Positions 26,778 to 59,419 of a stretch of 64,000 bases of DNA are shown here, one piece after another (the first letter of the stretch is position 1; every line of letters starts with the position of its first letter). The position numbers were made by a program, and so were the translations under genes. Under the pieces are notes generated by a model. The model was not told the DNA's origin, did not search any database, and worked only from the letters and a program-made list of their open reading frames with translations. The stretch lies in assembly GCA_905234395.1 (NCBI GenBank), contig CAJOHG010000002.1, positions 1 to 64,000 on the forward strand. The letters are read 5' to 3'. This DNA comes from an uncultured Selenomonadaceae bacterium (GTDB lineage Bacteria; Bacillota; Negativicutes; Selenomonadales; Selenomonadaceae).

Positions 26778-26807
26778 ATTATAATAGCTGTTTTTTTTTT
26801 TTGTCAA
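26778..26807 (-). promoter_or_regulatory. Promoter of RTX gene 3 with an A12 tract in the spacer
   Basis: Minus strand: -35 TTGACA (26802-26807) and -10 TATAAT (26778-26783), both perfect, separated by 18 nt. An A12 homopolymer (26791-26802) starts at the last base of the -35 box and fills 11 of the spacer positions. Length changes in the tract would alter the spacing directly. Confidence 0.85.
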
Positions 26808-47584: not shown

Positions 47585-48712
47585 ATGGTCGATTTTAATG
47601 TGCCGCCATTTGTCGGCGACGAACTGAAATACATTGAACAAGCCGTCAAAGCTCGCAGAATCAGCGGCGACGGAACGTTCACGAAGAAATGTAACGCTTG
47701 GTTGGAAAAAAATTTTCACGCGCAAAAAGTTCTGCTCACGACAAGCGGGACAAGTGCTCTTGATATGGCGATGCTTCTTTGCAATTTCCAACCCGGCGAC
47801 GAAGTGATTCTGCCGAGCTACACTTTCTCAAGCACGGCGACTTCAATTCTCGTCGGCGGTGCGATACCTGTTTTCGTTGATATTCGCTCCGACACGATGA
47901 ACATTGACGAGCGCAAAATTGAGGCGGCGATAACTCCGCGCACGAGAGCCGTTGCCGTTGTCCATTATGCAGGAATTTCTTGCGAGATGAATTCGATTGT
48001 CGACATTGCCCGCCGTCACAAGCTCAAGATCATTGAAGATGCCGCGCAGGGAGTGATGAGCACTTACAACGGAAAATTTCTCGGAACGCTCGGCGACTTC
48101 GGTTGCTACTCTTTCCACGAGACGAAAAATTTTTCCATGGGCGAAGGCGGCGCGATTGTCATAAACGATGCGGCTTACAATGAACGGGCTGAAATTTTGC
48201 GCGAAAAAGGAACCAATCGTTCAAAATTTTTTCGCGGACAGATCGACAAATACACGTGGGTTGATGTCGGCGACAGCTACTTGCCGAGCGAAATTAATGC
48301 GGCGTATCTTTACGCACAACTTCAACGCGCCGATGAAATTAACGAGAATCGTAGTGCGACGTGGCAAAAATATTTCGACGCATTTCAACCTTTGGCGAAC
48401 GCAGGAAAAATTGAGTTGCCTGCTGTTCCCGCGAATTGTCGGCACAACGGTCACCTGTTTTGGCTCAAGCTCAAGGATTTGCAACAGCGCACGGAATTTA
48501 TCAACTTCATGTGCGACAACGGCGTGAATTGCGTCTTTCATTACGTTCCGTTGCATTCCGCGCCCGCCGGCAAAAAATATTGTCGCTTCCATGGCGAAGA
48601 TCTTTTCACGACGCGGGAAAGTGAACGACTTGTTCGCCTGCCGATGTATTACGGTTTGTCGGCGGAGGATTTAAATCGCGTCGTCGAGACCGTGAAAAAA
48701 TTTTTTGATTGA
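47585..48712 (+). CDS. DegT/DnrJ/EryC1 sugar aminotransferase, WecE (RffA)-like
   Basis: A 375-residue PLP enzyme. Marks are RISGDGTFTKKCNAWLEK near residue 25, LTTSGTSALDMAMLLCNFQP near 51, VHYAGISCEMNSI near 126, EDAAQGVMSTYNG near 152, and the PLP lysine in FHETKNFSMGEGGAI near 182. The overall pattern, including HLFWLKLKDLQQR and the closing FHYVPLHSAP, fits dTDP-4-keto-6-deoxyglucose aminotransferase, which makes dTDP-4-amino-4,6-dideoxygalactose (Fuc4N). It supplies an amino sugar to the cluster (inference). Confidence 0.88.
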   Translation: MVDFNVPPFVGDELKYIEQAVKARRISGDGTFTKKCNAWLEKNFHAQKVLLTTSGTSALDMAMLLCNFQPGDEVILPSYTFSSTATSILVGGAIPVFVDIRSDTMNIDERKIEAAITPRTRAVAVVHYAGISCEMNSIVDIARRHKLKIIEDAAQGVMSTYNGKFLGTLGDFGCYSFHETKNFSMGEGGAIVINDAAYNERAEILREKGTNRSKFFRGQIDKYTWVDVGDSYLPSEINAAYLYAQLQRADEINENRSATWQKYFDAFQPLANAGKIELPAVPANCRHNGHLFWLKLKDLQQRTEFINFMCDNGVNCVFHYVPLHSAPAGKKYCRFHGEDLFTTRESERLVRLPMYYGLSAEDLNRVVETVKKFFD

Positions 48713-48723
48713 GGAGACTTAAC

Positions 48724-49810
48724 TTGAGTTTTGAAAATTTTTTGAATGAATTCAGCGCAATGACCGATGGCGTAAATTTGATTGACGATAAGATTAAAAT
48801 TCGCGGACTGCCCGTCATAATTTTCGGTGCCGGCGAGATGGCGAAGTGGGTGACGGAAAATTTGTCGGAGCGCGGAATCAACGTCGATGGTTATGCGGTC
48901 GATGCCGAATTCTTCAAGCCCGATAAAAAATTTTTGGATCGTCCCGTTTACAATTTCGCGGAACTTCGCGCTCAACCCGAACGATACGTTTTTGTTTTGG
49001 GCATGGAAGACGAGATGCAGGGCGGTAGTCGTGCCGTCAATTTTCTGCGCGACGAGCAAATCATTTCCTACCCTCTGCCGATAAACCTCAAAGGCTCATC
49101 CGAAAAAATCGGTGCGGAATTCATTGCCGACAACCGCGACGCCTTTGCGCAGACTTACGACTTGCTTGCCGATGAACTTTCGCGCCGAACGATGATAAAT
49201 TTTCTGAAGCTTAAGCTCACCGCCGATTGGACGTTGAATCTCGACGTGTTTAAGCCCGCGCCGTACTTCAACGTCTTGACCGAGAAATTTTCGCACGGAG
49301 CGTTCGTAGATTGCGGTGCCTATTGCGGTGATACGATTGCGCGATTTGTAAATTGGAGCTGCGGTCGTTACGAAAAAATTTTTGCCTTCGAACCCGACGC
49401 GGCAAATTTCTCTGCGCTTGAAAATTTCGTTCGCGCCGAAGATTACAGAGACGTTTCGCTTTTCAACTGCGGCGTTTGGCACGAGAAGGGCACAATTTAT
49501 TTTGAACGGCAAATCGAACGAATTCGGGACTGTCGCAATACACACGGAGAAACTCGACGACGTTTTGCGCGGCGAGAACGTGAGCCTCATCAAAATGGAA
49601 ATTCAAGGCAGCGAACTCAACGCTTTGAGAGGCGCGACTGAAATCCTCAAAAATCAAAAGCCCGCTTTGACGATTATGATGTTTCATTGTGAAGACAACT
49701 TGATAACCATTCCGCAATTCATCGCCTCCGTTCAAAGCGACTACAAAATTTTTCTCCGCAAACACAGTCGTTTCTATATGGGAGAGTACATCTTGTATGC
49801 AATTCCTTAA
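48724..49810 (+). pseudogene. FkbM-type methyltransferase, split by a frameshift
   Basis: The first 260 residues (TTG start after GAGGAG) hold a Rossmann-like N-terminal part (PVIIFGAGEMAKWVTENL near 29) and the methyltransferase core: AFVDCGAYCGDTIARFVNW near 195 and IFAFEPDAANFSALENFV near 218. The frame breaks near 49500 after GTIYF. The other frame continues GKSNEFGTVAIHTEKLDDVL and LIKMEIQGSELNALRGATEI, typical FkbM ends, to a stop at 49810. The total of 1087 nt fits one extra base. No homopolymer longer than four lies there, so it is either a true mutation or a sequence error. Function would be O-methylation of a sugar (inference). Confidence 0.8.
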
Positions 49811-49840: not shown

Positions 49841-51082
49841 ATGAAAAAGGTTATGATTTTGGGGGCGGGGAGCGGTCAAGTGCCCTTTTTAAAGATTTGT
49901 CGCTCAAAAGGTTACGAAGTAATCGTCGTGAGCGTCCCGGGTGATTATCCCGGTTTCAAGTTGGCGGACAAGTTTTATTTCGTCGACACCAGAGATAAGG
50001 ACACGATTTTAAAAATTGCCCGTGACGAAAAGATCGACGCCATATTGACCGACCAAACCGATGTGTCTGTCCCGACTGTTGCCTTCGTTGCCGAGAAGAT
50101 GGACTTGCGCGGTATCGGCTACGAAACTGCCTTGAAGTTCACTGACAAATATTTGATGCGCAAAGCTGCCAAAGAAGCCGGCGTAGGAGTTCCCGCATTC
50201 GATAGAGCATTCAATGTTGCGGAGGCTGTGGATATAGCGGAAAAAATCGGCTACCCGCTGATAATCAAACCCGTCGACAGCAGCGGCAGCAGAGGTGTCC
50301 GTCGCATAGATTCTCCCGAAGATTTGAAAAAGGAATTCGACGCCACAAAACATTACTCGCTGTCCGGCACGGTGATTCTGGAAGGTTTCATCGAAGGCAA
50401 AGAATATCTCGTTGACGGCTATGCAATGGATTACGAGTACTGCAATTTGGATTTGGGCATAAAAGAACAATTCAATTTGCCGGGAATGTATATGTCAAAA
50501 ATGTGCATGTTCTCGTCGGCAAAGAGAATTAAAGATCGCGTGGGACAGATGGTGCTGGAGGCAAATAAAAAGCTTGCGACTTCAATGAGACTGCCCTTTG
50601 GCATTACTCACGCGGAATATCGCTACAATAAGGCGGAGGATAAAGTTTATCTGATTGAAATTGCTGCGCGCGGCGGCGGCGATTATATATCCTCTGACTT
50701 AACGGCTTTGGCGTCGGGTTTCAGCACCAATGAGCCGCTGGTTGACTACATTGTCAATGGAAATATTCATAAGGCGAACTTCGACAAATTGGACGACAAA
50801 GTTGCGGCATGGCTCGGAGTTGCTTTTCCTGCAGACGGAATTGTTCGTTACATAAAAGGTTTGGAAAATTTACAACACATACACGGCGTATACAGGCATC
50901 ACATGGACAATATTTTTATTGGCAAAAAAGTTCATCCACCTACAGACGACACAGGCAGATACGGTTTGATACTTATTCATGCCGACACGGAGGACGAATG
51001 CTACAAAATTATCGGCAAGGCTAAAAATACTCTGGACATAGAGATCGAAACGGCTGACGGCATAAAAAAACAAATCTGGTGA
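49841..51082 (+). CDS. ATP-grasp ligase
   Basis: A 413-residue protein. The N-terminal pre-ATP domain (MKKVMILGAGSGQVPFLKIC) is followed by the ATP-grasp domain: LKFTDKYLMRKAAKEAGVGV near 110, YPLIIKPVDSSGSRGVRRI near 147 with the ATP-binding lysine, ILEGFIEGKEYLVDGYA near 187, and LIEIAARGGGDYISSDL near 273 with metal-binding residues. The family (carbamoyl-phosphate-synthase-like / amino-acid ligase) joins a carboxylate to an amine using ATP. Adjacent racemase-like and DapB-like genes suggest it ligates an unusual amino acid, perhaps to the WecE-made amino sugar (inference). Base use looks somewhat more AT-rich than in housekeeping neighbours. Confidence 0.82.
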   Translation: MKKVMILGAGSGQVPFLKICRSKGYEVIVVSVPGDYPGFKLADKFYFVDTRDKDTILKIARDEKIDAILTDQTDVSVPTVAFVAEKMDLRGIGYETALKFTDKYLMRKAAKEAGVGVPAFDRAFNVAEAVDIAEKIGYPLIIKPVDSSGSRGVRRIDSPEDLKKEFDATKHYSLSGTVILEGFIEGKEYLVDGYAMDYEYCNLDLGIKEQFNLPGMYMSKMCMFSSAKRIKDRVGQMVLEANKKLATSMRLPFGITHAEYRYNKAEDKVYLIEIAARGGGDYISSDLTALASGFSTNEPLVDYIVNGNIHKANFDKLDDKVAAWLGVAFPADGIVRYIKGLENLQHIHGVYRHHMDNIFIGKKVHPPTDDTGRYGLILIHADTEDECYKIIGKAKNTLDIEIETADGIKKQIW

Positions 51083-51088
51083 GAGAAT

Positions 51089-51832
51089 ATGAGTAACGTG
51101 GTTTACGGCGGGCAAACGGTCTATGGTTATGAAGTAGGAATTATAATGCTGAACACGACTTTTCCGCGCATTGTGGGTGATGTCGGAAATGCGTTGACTT
51201 GGAATTTTCCCGTCAAATACGAGATTGTGGACAGGGTGCCCAATGACAAAGTTGTTTTGAATTTGGATGAGTCGGATCTGGTGCCTTTCATTGCGGCGGC
51301 AAAAAAACTGATTGGGGGGGGGGTTAGACTTATAACAACTTCTTGCGGTTTTTTGTCATTGTTTCAAGACCAATTGTCGCGCGAAGTCGACGTTCCAATT
51401 TTTACATCCTCTCTTATCATGTTGCCGATGATAAGGCGAATGATCAATCCCGAAAAGAAAATTTTGGTGCTCACGGCAAACAGCGAGACATTGTCGCCCG
51501 AACATTTCGCGGCAGTCGGAGTGTCACCAAAAAATTTTAATTTGGAGATATGCGGAACTCAACACAAAAAAACTTTTACCAATTTCACCGTGCATAATTG
51601 GCAATCGGTAAACGTTGACGACTGCAGGAATGATTTATTTGAAGTTCTTGAGGAAAGCACTTCATTGGCTGAAAACAAAGCGGGTGCCATAGTGCTTGAG
51701 TGCACGAACATGTGTCCGTACAGCGACGATATTCGAGAACGCTACAAGGTTCCCGTTTTTGATTTTGTTTCGATGGTTAATTTCGTTCGCGAAACGATTC
51801 ACGTTTCCGGAAAATATTGGAGATACCGATGA
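51089..51832 (+). CDS. Asp/Glu racemase-like protein containing a G10 tract
   Basis: A 247-residue protein of the Asp/Glu/hydantoin racemase fold. The two active-site cysteines are in LITTSCGFLSLF near residue 82 and IVLECTNMCPYS near 207. It probably racemises or otherwise rearranges an acidic amino acid. The codons for IGGGV (near 72) are formed by ten consecutive G, in frame as read. It begins 6 nt after the ATP-grasp stop and overlaps the DapB-like gene by 4 nt (ATGA), so the three are co-translated. Exact chemistry cannot be read from the sequence. Confidence 0.75.
   Translation: MSNVVYGGQTVYGYEVGIIMLNTTFPRIVGDVGNALTWNFPVKYEIVDRVPNDKVVLNLDESDLVPFIAAAKKLIGGGVRLITTSCGFLSLFQDQLSREVDVPIFTSSLIMLPMIRRMINPEKKILVLTANSETLSPEHFAAVGVSPKNFNLEICGTQHKKTFTNFTVHNWQSVNVDDCRNDLFEVLEESTSLAENKAGAIVLECTNMCPYSDDIRERYKVPVFDFVSMVNFVRETIHVSGKYWRYR
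51314..51323 (+). repeat. G10 homopolymer inside the racemase gene
   Basis: Ten consecutive G in the coding strand, read ATT GGG GGG GGG GTT. Loss or gain of one base would shift the frame and stop translation of the gene and probably of the coupled gene behind it. Confidence 0.95.
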
Positions 51833-55911: not shown

Positions 55912-56847
55912 TTAAATCGTGCCCATCGTCAACGCCATGACAGCCTTTTGCGTGTGAAGTCGATTTTCAGCCTCGTCAAAGATAACGTGCGCATTGTCTT
56001 CCAAAACGTCGTCGGTGATTTCCTCGCCGCGATAAGCCGGCAAACAGTGCAGGACGATTGCATTTTTGCTCGCGTGGCTCAAAAGATTTTTGTTGACTTG
56101 ATACGGCGCAAAGATTTTCTTGCGTGCGTCGTGTTCAGCTTCTTGTCCCATGCTCGCCCAAGTGTCCGTCGCGATAATGTCGGCGTCACGAACAGCCTCA
56201 ATCGGGTCTTGCGTCCACGAAAGTTTTGCTCCGGTCTCTTCGGCGTCGGAAAGTGCGTTCTCGAAAACTTTTTGATTCGGCTTGTAATTTTCGGGCGTCG
56301 CAACGTTGAGCGTCATTCCGACTTTCGCCGCGCCGTAAAGATAAGAATTGGTCATGTTGTTGCCGTCACCGACGTAAGCCATTTTGAGTGCGCGGAAATT
56401 TTTGCCCTTGTGTTCGCGAATCGTCAACAGATCCGTCAAAACTTGACACGGGTGCAATAAATCGGTCAAGCCGTTGATGACGGGAATATCGGCGTATTTG
56501 GCAAGCTCCTCGACTTTCGACTGCTCGAACGTGCGAATCATGATTCCGTCAAGATATCGCGCCAAAACTCTGGCGGTGTCTTTAATAGGCTCGCCGCGTC
56601 CGAGTTGCAAATCTTTGCTCGACAAAAATAATCCCGTGCCGCCAAGTTGGAAGATGCCGACTTCAAAAGATACACGCGTGCGCGTCGAAGATTTTTCAAA
56701 GATCATTCCCAACGTCTTGCCCGAAAGCAATTTGTGTTCGACGCCCGATTTCTGCATGATTTTCAATTTCGCCGCGCAGTCCAAAATTTCATAAACCTCG
56801 TCCGCGCTGAGATCGTGAATCGAAAGTAAATCTTTACCGTTCAACAA
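55912..56847 (-). CDS. argF: Ornithine carbamoyltransferase
   Basis: Makes citrulline from ornithine and carbamoyl phosphate. It has 311 residues. Marks are FEKSSTRTRVSFEVGIFQLG near residue 50 (carbamoyl-phosphate loop STRTR), NGLTDLLHPCQVLTDLLTI near 122, YVGDGNNMTNSYLYGAAKVG near 152, TDTWASMGQE near 228 and VLHCLPAYRGEEITDDVLE near 267. The start is TTG inside the end of GT92 copy 1, with GGAGAG upstream; a GTG three codons earlier (56856) is possible. Translation is coupled to the glycosyltransferase gene. A 45-bp piece spanning this start is duplicated at 58175-58219. Confidence 0.94.
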   Translation of the reverse strand: MLNGKDLLSIHDLSADEVYEILDCAAKLKIMQKSGVEHKLLSGKTLGMIFEKSSTRTRVSFEVGIFQLGGTGLFLSSKDLQLGRGEPIKDTARVLARYLDGIMIRTFEQSKVEELAKYADIPVINGLTDLLHPCQVLTDLLTIREHKGKNFRALKMAYVGDGNNMTNSYLYGAAKVGMTLNVATPENYKPNQKVFENALSDAEETGAKLSWTQDPIEAVRDADIIATDTWASMGQEAEHDARKKIFAPYQVNKNLLSHASKNAIVLHCLPAYRGEEITDDVLEDNAHVIFDEAENRLHTQKAVMALTMGTI

Positions 56848-58137
56848 AATTATCACTCTCCAAATTAAAAATGTCTTGTAAGTAATCCAAATCAACAAAA
56901 TATTGCCATGCATCAACTCTTTCTAGACCGCGGACTACTTTTTTTATCTCGCCCGTTATTCGCGGAATAGCAACTTGCTGACACGCAGCTCGCAATTCAT
57001 TGACGACAGGATAAGGCAAACTTAAAAGCTTCGGCAATTCTCGTGTAAAGAGTCTTCCGTCATTCAAAGTCACTTGGTCGAGTGATTTTAAGACAGCTTT
57101 GAGTGATGCCTCTTCATAAAATTTTGCCTGCAAAGTGTCCGCGAGTTTCGTCTGAAGATAAGCGGCGACTGCGCGGCAAGTCAAAAACGTTTCCATTTTG
57201 TCCGCGTAAAAATCTTGCGGCGTGTTCGTTGAAAGAGTCGGCGATAAATTTTTCTCTAAAGCACTTAACAATCTTTCGTCGACGTGAGAATTATCGGGCG
57301 GCTGATAAATTTTCGCTCGTGCGTCGCGATAATTTAAAATGCCGTCGTCGAATTCCTCGTTGCGGTCATAAAGGTTAAATTGTTTTTCATCGTAAGGAAC
57401 TTTGCCGGGACAAGCCCAACCTCTCGGCGTTTTTTTTGTAATAAATTCTTCGCGGGATTTTATGTAATAATGATTGACAACGATTTTTTCTGCAGTCACA
57501 GGAAAGTTAAGGTGATTGAAAGTAGGACGACCCATTTCATTTACGGGATAATGTCCTCCAAAATAAACGATATGATGCGGATCGAAAATGAATTTTATTT
57601 GTCTCGGAATGGTAATGTTTTTTATGAAAGCATTATACGATCTGTTATTAACCGTATAGTCTTTGGGAGCGCGGCGCGTGAATCGTTCGAGCACACCGCG
57701 AGAGTAGTCGGCAGTCTCCAGACCATTTGAACCGTAATGTTGCCAATTCATTACCAAGCCAGGTACGTTCGGGTTGTGCGACAAAATTTCGTCGACGACA
57801 TCAGTAATAATCCCCCCCCAACTGATTTTGGAAAGATGAATTCGTCACCGTCGATGAACGCCATATAACGACAATGATACTTGAATCGTTTCACAGCGTC
57901 GTTATAAGCAACGTATTGAACGGGTTTTCCATTAATAGGAATGTAATCGACGAGACCGGCTTCAACGTAAGGTGCGGCGACTTCGGCTTGATTGTCTGTT
58001 GAATCGTTGTCATAAAGGTAAAAATGATCTACGCCTGCCATCAAGTGATAGTCGAGCCACTCTTTCAGATACGGAGCCTCACATTTGAGAATCGCCACGA
58101 CTGCCAAATCGTGCAGGAATAAATTTTTGTCAACCAT
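56834..58137 (-). pseudogene. GT92-like glycosyltransferase copy 1, out of frame at a G8 tract
   Basis: The N-terminal 96 residues (MVDKNLFLHDLAVVAILKCE, then FYLYDNDSTDNQAEVAAP, to MAFIDGDEFIFPKS) run into VGGG and then nonsense at eight consecutive G. The second half (DVVDEILSHNPNVPGLVMNW to NLESDNFVER) lies in another frame. Adding one G makes a single 434-codon frame that aligns with copies 2 and 3, so as read the gene is OFF. Motifs as in copy 2, including GVLERFTRRAPKDY. Its end overlaps the argF start. Confidence 0.88.
57812..57819 (-). repeat. G8 (plus-strand C8) tract in GT92 copy 1
   Basis: Eight G in the coding strand read GTT GGG GGG GGA TTA. Nine G would give GGG GGG GGG ATT and restore the frame (IITDVVDEIL, matching IVEVVDEIL of copy 2). 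This is the layout of a slipped-strand contingency tract. Confidence 0.95.
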
Positions 58138-58174: not shown

Positions 58175-58219
58175 ATCGAAAGTAAATCTTTACCGTTCAA
58201 CAAAATTATCACTCTCCAA
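58175..58219 (-). repeat. Duplicated argF start behind GT92 copy 2
   Basis: 45 bp identical to 56819-56863. It covers the last codons of the glycosyltransferase and the first codons of argF (NGKDLLSI). Behind copy 2 the argF part is a useless fragment of about ten codons. It shows that the unit duplicated was one glycosyltransferase gene plus the beginning of argF, with a 1356-bp period. Confidence 0.9.
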
Positions 58220-59419
58220 TTTCAAAAGGTCTCGCAGATAATCAAACTCCACGTAATGTTTCCACCAATATCTTGCGCCGAAAACGTTCATAAACTGCGC
58301 GAGAAAATCTCGTGCGGCGTTGCGAATGAACTTCACGGCAGGATAAGGAAAGCTCAAAAGATTTGGCAGGTCACGAATAAAAAGTTGCGCCTCCGATTGA
58401 GTTGCACCGCTCAAAGATTTTAAAATCGCCTCAATCGACGCTTGCTCACAAATTTTCCAATAATCGGCGGCGGGAAATTGACTGCGCAAAAATGTTGCCA
58501 ATGCCCGGCACGTCAAAGCCGTTTCCATATTATCAACGGTCGGCAAAATTTTTATCAACGTCTCAATCACGCGGGCAAGTCTGTCGTCGCGACTTTCAAT
58601 CGAAAAATTTTCTGCACGGACTGCACGATAATACAAAATGCCGTTGTCGAACTCGTCGTTGCGGTCAAGGTTATTAAATTTCTCTCGCGTATATTGATTG
58701 ATTTCTGTATTGGCACAGGCATAACCGCGTCGAGACTTCTGCGCATATTCTTCCCACGATTTGCAATGATAATGATTGACGACAATTTTTTCGGCGGTTA
58801 CGGGTTCATTGAATTCTGCAGGAACGACTGCATCGTTCTCATTAACGGCGGTCAGCGGCTCAAAATAAATCGCGTAGTGCGGAATGCCGACAAAATCTAT
58901 CGCGCGAGGATTGGCTATCGTCTTGACTTGTTTATTTCCCGACCAATCTTTAGCGGCACGTCGAGTAAATCTTTCAAGCACGCCGCGAGAATAATCGGCA
59001 GTCTCTTGCCCGTTTGAACCGTAGATTTGCCAATTAATCGCAAGTCCCGCCGCCAATGAATCGCGCGATAAAATTTCGTCAACGACCTCAACGATTGAAC
59101 GATTGCTTTTCGGCAAGATGAATTCGTCGCCGTCAATGAATGCCATGTAACGACACTGAAACTTGAAACGTTTTACGGCGTCATTGTAGACAATCAGCTG
59201 CATTGCATTGCCGGGCGCATGAATATAATCGATGAGACCTGCCTCAACGTAAGGCGCGGCGACTTCGGCTTGATTGTCCGTTGAATCGTTGTCATAAAGG
59301 TAGAAATGTTCGACGCCGGCGAGCAAATGATAGTCGAGCCACTCTTTCAGATACGGAGCCTCACATTTGAGAATCGCCACGACTGCCAAATCATACGGGA
59401 ACAAATTTTTATTAACCAT
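58190..59419 (-). CDS. GT92-like glycosyltransferase copy 2
   Basis: A 409-residue protein. The opening LAVVAILKCEAPYLKEWLDY near residue 12, HFYLYDNDSTDNQAEVAAPY near 37, FIDGDEFILPKSNRSIVEVV near 92, and SNGQETADYSRGVLERFTRR near 130 fit the DUF23/GT92 pattern, in which the DxD-like DGDE binds the metal and sugar nucleotide. VTAEKIVVNHYHCKSWEEYA near 205 is also conserved among the copies; the last 120 residues are helical. The acceptor is unknown. It overlaps argD by 8 nt. It has no homopolymer tract. Confidence 0.85.
   Translation of the reverse strand: MVNKNLFPYDLAVVAILKCEAPYLKEWLDYHLLAGVEHFYLYDNDSTDNQAEVAAPYVEAGLIDYIHAPGNAMQLIVYNDAVKRFKFQCRYMAFIDGDEFILPKSNRSIVEVVDEILSRDSLAAGLAINWQIYGSNGQETADYSRGVLERFTRRAAKDWSGNKQVKTIANPRAIDFVGIPHYAIYFEPLTAVNENDAVVPAEFNEPVTAEKIVVNHYHCKSWEEYAQKSRRGYACANTEINQYTREKFNNLDRNDEFDNGILYYRAVRAENFSIESRDDRLARVIETLIKILPTVDNMETALTCRALATFLRSQFPAADYWKICEQASIEAILKSLSGATQSEAQLFIRDLPNLLSFPYPAVKFIRNAARDFLAQFMNVFGARYWWKHYVEFDYLRDLLKLESDNFVER

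Follow-up and report, generated by a model that had tools for sequence, protein, structure and literature searches.

Why does an Asp/Glu-racemase-like gene of an uncultured Selenomonadaceae bacterium contain an uninterrupted run of ten G? The run (G10) lies in the first 64,000 bases (here called the window) of a 77.5 kb contig, which belongs to a 2.83 Mb draft genome in 157 contigs. Our analysis indicates that G10 is very probably a simple-sequence contingency tract, one of about 40 that switch surface-glycan, envelope and some restriction-modification genes across this genome; slippage in living cells, the chemical step and the benefit are parts of the explanation that we infer. The two features at issue, in window coordinates, are:

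51314-51323, plus strand: G10 tract, the presumed switch (letter count; chance excluded by simulation and codon usage)
51089-51832, plus strand: Asp/Glu-racemase-like gene containing G10, 247 amino acids; Pfam PF01177 (Asp_Glu_race), E-value 6.7e-8; full length (ON) in the assembly

The tract reads ATT-GGG-GGG-GGG-GTT (I-G-G-G-V) in the frame of the open reading frame (ORF) 51089-51832. The original prediction, made from the letters of the window, had placed ten in-frame G in such a gene, and both position and frame are exact. The protein passes the curated PF01177 cut-off marginally (33 bits versus 31), and its putative catalytic cysteines lie in the motifs TTSCGF and ECTNMC, both of which are kept in a Butyrivibrio homologue (TSCGF, ECTNM). 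In-silico translation of tract lengths 7, 10 and 13 gives the full-length racemase-like protein; lengths of 8, 9, 11 and 12 lead to a stop after 78-82 codons, ahead of both putative catalytic cysteines, in agreement with the prediction that a one-base slip would shut down the racemase.

Base composition and coding demand both fail to account for the run. The G/C runs of the window comprise 17 of length 4, one of length 5, none of 6, 7 or 9, one of 8 and one of 10; as originally noticed, G10 and a G8 in a GT92 glycosyltransferase gene are the only long ones, no other G/C run in the 64 kb exceeding 5. Markov models of orders 2, 3 and 4, trained on the window with its tracts shortened and used to simulate one 2.83 Mb genome each, gave 0-1 runs of 8 and no longer run. 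GGG makes up 3.8% of Gly codons in the long ORFs of the window, where only one of 17 Gly-Gly-Gly tripeptides, that at the G10 site, is written as three GGG. Because of these simulations and codon counts, G10 is left unexplained by composition or protein need; a protein constraint as its cause is ruled out by the rarity of GGG codons and by the presence of RAGC at this place in the Butyrivibrio homologue. A seemingly intergenic T12 at 26791-26802, longer than any other A/T run in the window, is a possible promoter-spacing tract.

The whole genome was searched by sequence pattern, the stretches around all tracts were taken and Pfam was run on genes or gene halves. The search returned three G/C runs of exactly 7, nine of exactly 8 and 31 of 9-11, so that 40 runs of 8-11 stand against 0-1 in simulation. 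The contig studied here carries three tracts in a stretch of 14 kb: G10, the GT92 G8 and, just past the window at 64994, a G11 in a Gfo/Idh/MocA-type oxidoreductase with its halves in different frames. The second tract of the window and its surroundings are:

57812-57819, minus strand: G8 (C8 on the plus strand), out of frame (OFF) in the assembly
56834-58137, minus strand: GT92 glycosyltransferase gene split by G8; Pfam Glyco_transf_92 in its first half
58190-59419, minus strand: intact, tract-free GT92 paralogue that serves as a yardstick (ORF and alignment)

Aligned to the intact neighbour, the two halves of the split GT92 gene cover its residues 1-105 and 109-409, and G8 puts the halves in different frames, a state absent from the original prediction.

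The original proposal to search for G/C runs of at least 8 and their clustering in surface genes is borne out by the 40 runs, which by Pfam annotation of the tract loci fall mostly in surface-glycan, envelope and restriction-modification genes, many of them out of frame. The tract-bearing or tract-adjacent genes include glycosyltransferases [GT2 (eight tracts), GT92, GT61 and GT17], two sugar-transfer ATP-grasps, a TupA-like ATP-grasp and two CDP-glycerol glycerophosphotransferase-like (teichoic-type) proteins. Also included are capsule PGA_cap proteins, hexapeptide and type-3 acyltransferases, two TadG-like proteins (Tad pilus), two FkbM and one other methyltransferase, a UDP-sugar dehydrogenase and two radical-SAM proteins. 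The eight GT2 tracts compare with about 0.6 expected [Poisson P ~3e-7; 45 GT2 matches in the genome, with an estimated coverage of ~44 kb]. Not every tract fits the surface bias: one belongs to a citrate-lyase-ligase-like gene, for instance, and a few are outside any recognisable gene. Several tracts follow a Shine-Dalgarno-like sequence and an ATG, falling among the first ten codons.

Two fusion genes represent restriction-modification, one an N6-methylase/specificity fusion and the other an HpaII-type methylase-endonuclease. The latter (L064:12926-15000, contig 9 of the same genome) has a G11 near its 3' end, where a slip would alter the last residues of the restriction domain, making it a candidate phase-variable restriction enzyme. 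In the former (L045:2575-5540, contig 40), a C8 sits between two Methylase_S domains, and a slip there could change the DNA recognition half, not merely turn the gene off.

Frame states were compared by one automatic test, applied to the 23 tracts of at least 8 with at least 60 open codons on each side and to control runs. The frame changed at 13/23 tracts and was kept at 10/23, compared with changes at 36/259 A/T runs of at least 7, 71/447 A/T runs of 6 and 12/92 G/C runs of 4-5 (13-16%); Fisher's test gives P = 9e-6 versus A/T runs of at least 7 and P = 4e-5 versus G/C runs of 4-5. The control baselines are mostly gene junctions and chance ORFs, and a few of the 13 frame-changing tracts (L061, L068) are probably gene junctions also. 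General homopolymer error, for which the A/T runs served as control, gained no support.

One-base differences between paralogues show length change at the level of DNA. Two tandem ATP-grasp_ST genes (contig 47) have identical flanks around C8 (frame broken) in one copy and C9 (one frame) in the other. In a GT2 pair (contig 79) an identical N-terminal leader precedes either C9, which reads on into the GT2 domain, or C10, which leads to a stop, and a glycerophosphotransferase-like pair (contig 17) has G9 (one frame) versus G10 (broken) at the same place. In the genus, plus-strand ATP-grasp_ST orthologues are without a tract at that site, and the tract looks lineage-specific because only one orthologue locus has any G/C run of at least 7. 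The tandem GT2 array of contig 79 (L052:10000-15012) also shows short deletions after QDFEVII in several copies, either from recombination between repeats or from assembly collapse.

The tracts are enriched throughout the genus. G/C runs of at least 9 occur in all 60 genus genomes sampled (median 15, range 2-88); across 123 genomes from the family's other genera the median is 3 (range 0-26; p ~1e-20). The richest genus genome (G003, 100% complete) has 88 such runs, of 10-14 bases in the 30 loci examined; Pfam matches in 20 scanned tract genes include GT8, GT11, GT2, FkbM, radical SAM, hexapeptide/PglD-like, two TonB-dependent receptors and one pyridine-nucleotide oxidoreductase. Loss of mismatch repair as the cause of the tracts is ruled out by the presence of MutS and MutL in the genome under study and nearly the whole family (MutS_I in 148/151 and MutL_C in 139/151 family genomes).

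The racemase-like gene itself is accessory, since it is present in 1/60 genus genomes, with no orthologue in the 59 others. A relative is found in L078, a Selenomonadaceae metagenome-assembled genome (MAG) from red deer which has 39 G/C runs of at least 8 genome-wide. The match to L078 suggests Selenomonadaceae as the family of the genomes compared here. Its racemase gene is 75% identical in two segments and 65% in a third and carries a G8, an out-of-frame length, at the G10 site within otherwise diverged DNA. A second frameshift, together with an insertion or gap, also affects the gene, and the neighbouring ATP-grasp gene is partly deleted. An inserted stretch with an N run (L078:6490-6700) breaks the gene; its ends carry similar hairpin-like motifs, and it is perhaps a small mobile element. 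The Butyrivibrio homologue (L077, 52% identical) has no run at the G10 site (GGGTGC).

G10 is embedded in a module whose other members are:

47585-48712, plus strand: DegT-type sugar aminotransferase; Pfam DegT_DnrJ_EryC1, E-value 2.8e-88; orthologue in L077 59% identical
49841-51082, plus strand: ATP-grasp ligase-like gene; Pfam ATP-grasp_4 and LAL_C2; gene order kept in L077 and L078
51829-52581, plus strand: DapB-like gene; Pfam DapB_N and DapB_C; ATG overlaps the racemase stop

In Butyrivibrio the aminotransferase, ATP-grasp, racemase-like and DapB-like proteins are 59, 48, 52 and 43% identical, respectively. At 51829-51832 the sequence ATGA overlaps the racemase TGA with the ATG of the DapB-like gene, an arrangement from which the latter is probably translationally coupled to the racemase-like gene. 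Two genes upstream of the racemase, the frame of an FkbM-like gene (48709-49810, plus strand) is broken at ~49530, where no homopolymer lies and the reading passes from GTIYFE to NGKSNEF in a different frame; the break is either a pseudogene, an indel or an assembly error.

Runs or frame breaks could in principle be made by the assembly or the sequencing, if homopolymers were miscalled or two-colour chemistry produced false poly-G, and a 157-contig draft with such defects as the tract-free broken FkbM-like gene and the deletions in the tandem GT2 array lends this some credit. We nevertheless consider an artefact highly improbable: the runs are internal and on both strands, in 10 cases the coding frame carries on unchanged across the run, frames are seldom broken at the assembly's A/T runs of 7-9, 60/60 genus genomes have runs when most other genera of the family have few, and the gene content of the tracts is strongly biased. 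A second rival is neutral decay, in which biased mutation of non-essential genes would have produced the runs, and the genes that are broken would be dead. The genes are accessory and L078 holds a damaged copy of the same operon, as decay would have it; however, the runs are not spread across all genes, the gene halves stay open and, in the GT92 case, like the intact paralogue away from the tract, with no further stops, and a 48% GC genome with no runs of 6, 7 or 9 in the window gives no evident G-run bias, which makes decay a very unlikely account. RNA polymerase slippage on long homopolymers is established, and slippage of RNA polymerase or ribosome at a fixed DNA length would yield mixed products and leave the out-of-frame genes partly expressed too. 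As the sole explanation it is extremely unlikely, because DNA lengths differ in near-identical paralogues (C8/C9, C9/C10) and at the same site in the relative, but it may act in addition to change in the DNA.

The original prediction of phase variation is thus well supported by the genome-wide set, the gene bias, the mixed frame states, the paralogue differences and the enrichment in the genus. Four points weigh on the other side. The evidence for tract-length switching is comparative sequence; the tract state of L078 is not clean evidence because of the other damage in its gene; the rarity of the racemase (1/60) means that the tract cannot be traced across species; and frame breaks without a tract exist in the assembly, as in the FkbM-like gene at ~49530.

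As a contingency tract, G10 would work as follows. During replication the polymerase would slip and gain or lose a G; lengths of 7, 10 and 13 would be ON and 8, 9, 11 and 12 OFF for the racemase-like protein. The OFF state would probably also uncouple the overlapping DapB-like gene: since the two genes overlap at stop and start, DapB-like synthesis should drop when racemase translation is lost. The make-up of the conserved module suggests that an amino sugar receives an amino-acid-type decoration, in which the aminotransferase product may be acylated with an amino-acid-like group by the ATP-grasp protein with its ligase C-terminal domain, and the racemase-like and DapB-like enzymes may make or change that group. 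G10 would then switch one surface decoration and the other tracts other steps. If the ~40 tracts switch independently, a clonal population would therefore carry many surface types, with evasion of phage or host as the presumed benefit.

In Campylobacter, Neisseria and Helicobacter, surface and restriction-modification genes are well known to vary in phase through poly-G/C tracts (PMC8437040, PMC4889913, PMC5084427, PMC2823697). In a survey of 99 genomes, poly-G and poly-C were as a rule under-represented, and an excess of runs of 7-8 was confined to 9 and 11 genomes (PMC2831843). The present set resembles a known multi-tract poly-G system of another phylum in its tracts of similar length in capsule, lipooligosaccharide and restriction-modification genes and in ON/OFF control by frame; unlike that system, it counts a racemase-like gene among its targets and coexists with MutS and MutL. 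Genome-wide homopolymer sets in or near surface genes are likewise described for Neisseria meningitidis (PMC5084427, PMC3786947) and Helicobacter canadensis (PMC2823697). Both are pathogens, human or zoonotic, in which experiments or deep sequencing back the switching, whereas the evidence for the system described here, in this as in the preceding comparison, is comparative sequence. In a Gram-positive relative, group A Streptococcus, slipped-strand mispairing at an intragenic poly-C of mga is experimentally shown; that case concerns a single regulator gene (PMC10330708) and ours a genome-wide set of surface genes. For Selenomonas, Negativicutes, Veillonella and rumen bacteria, a literature search that did not extend to subscription papers found nothing relevant on phase variation by homopolymers. 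The mechanism is thus an established one; what appears to be new is its lineage, the set's size and the racemase-like target.

It is likely that members of this genus, probably gut or rumen commensals of the Selenomonadaceae, keep genus-wide repertoires of poly-G switches (2-88 tracts of at least 9 per genome), comparable to or above those of classic pathogens, despite mismatch repair. If this is true, multi-locus sequence-repeat phase variation is not confined to pathogens, and the switched functions include amino-acid-type sugar decoration through a racemase/DapB-like module. The genus, whose closest named relative found is the red-deer Selenomonadaceae MAG, offers a direct test case, with dozens of surface-gene tracts per genome, a probably commensal life and MutS and MutL present. 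The finding yields a list of switch genes that can be read in metagenome data already available, and is relevant to possible surface variation by gut bacteria in the face of phages and the host.
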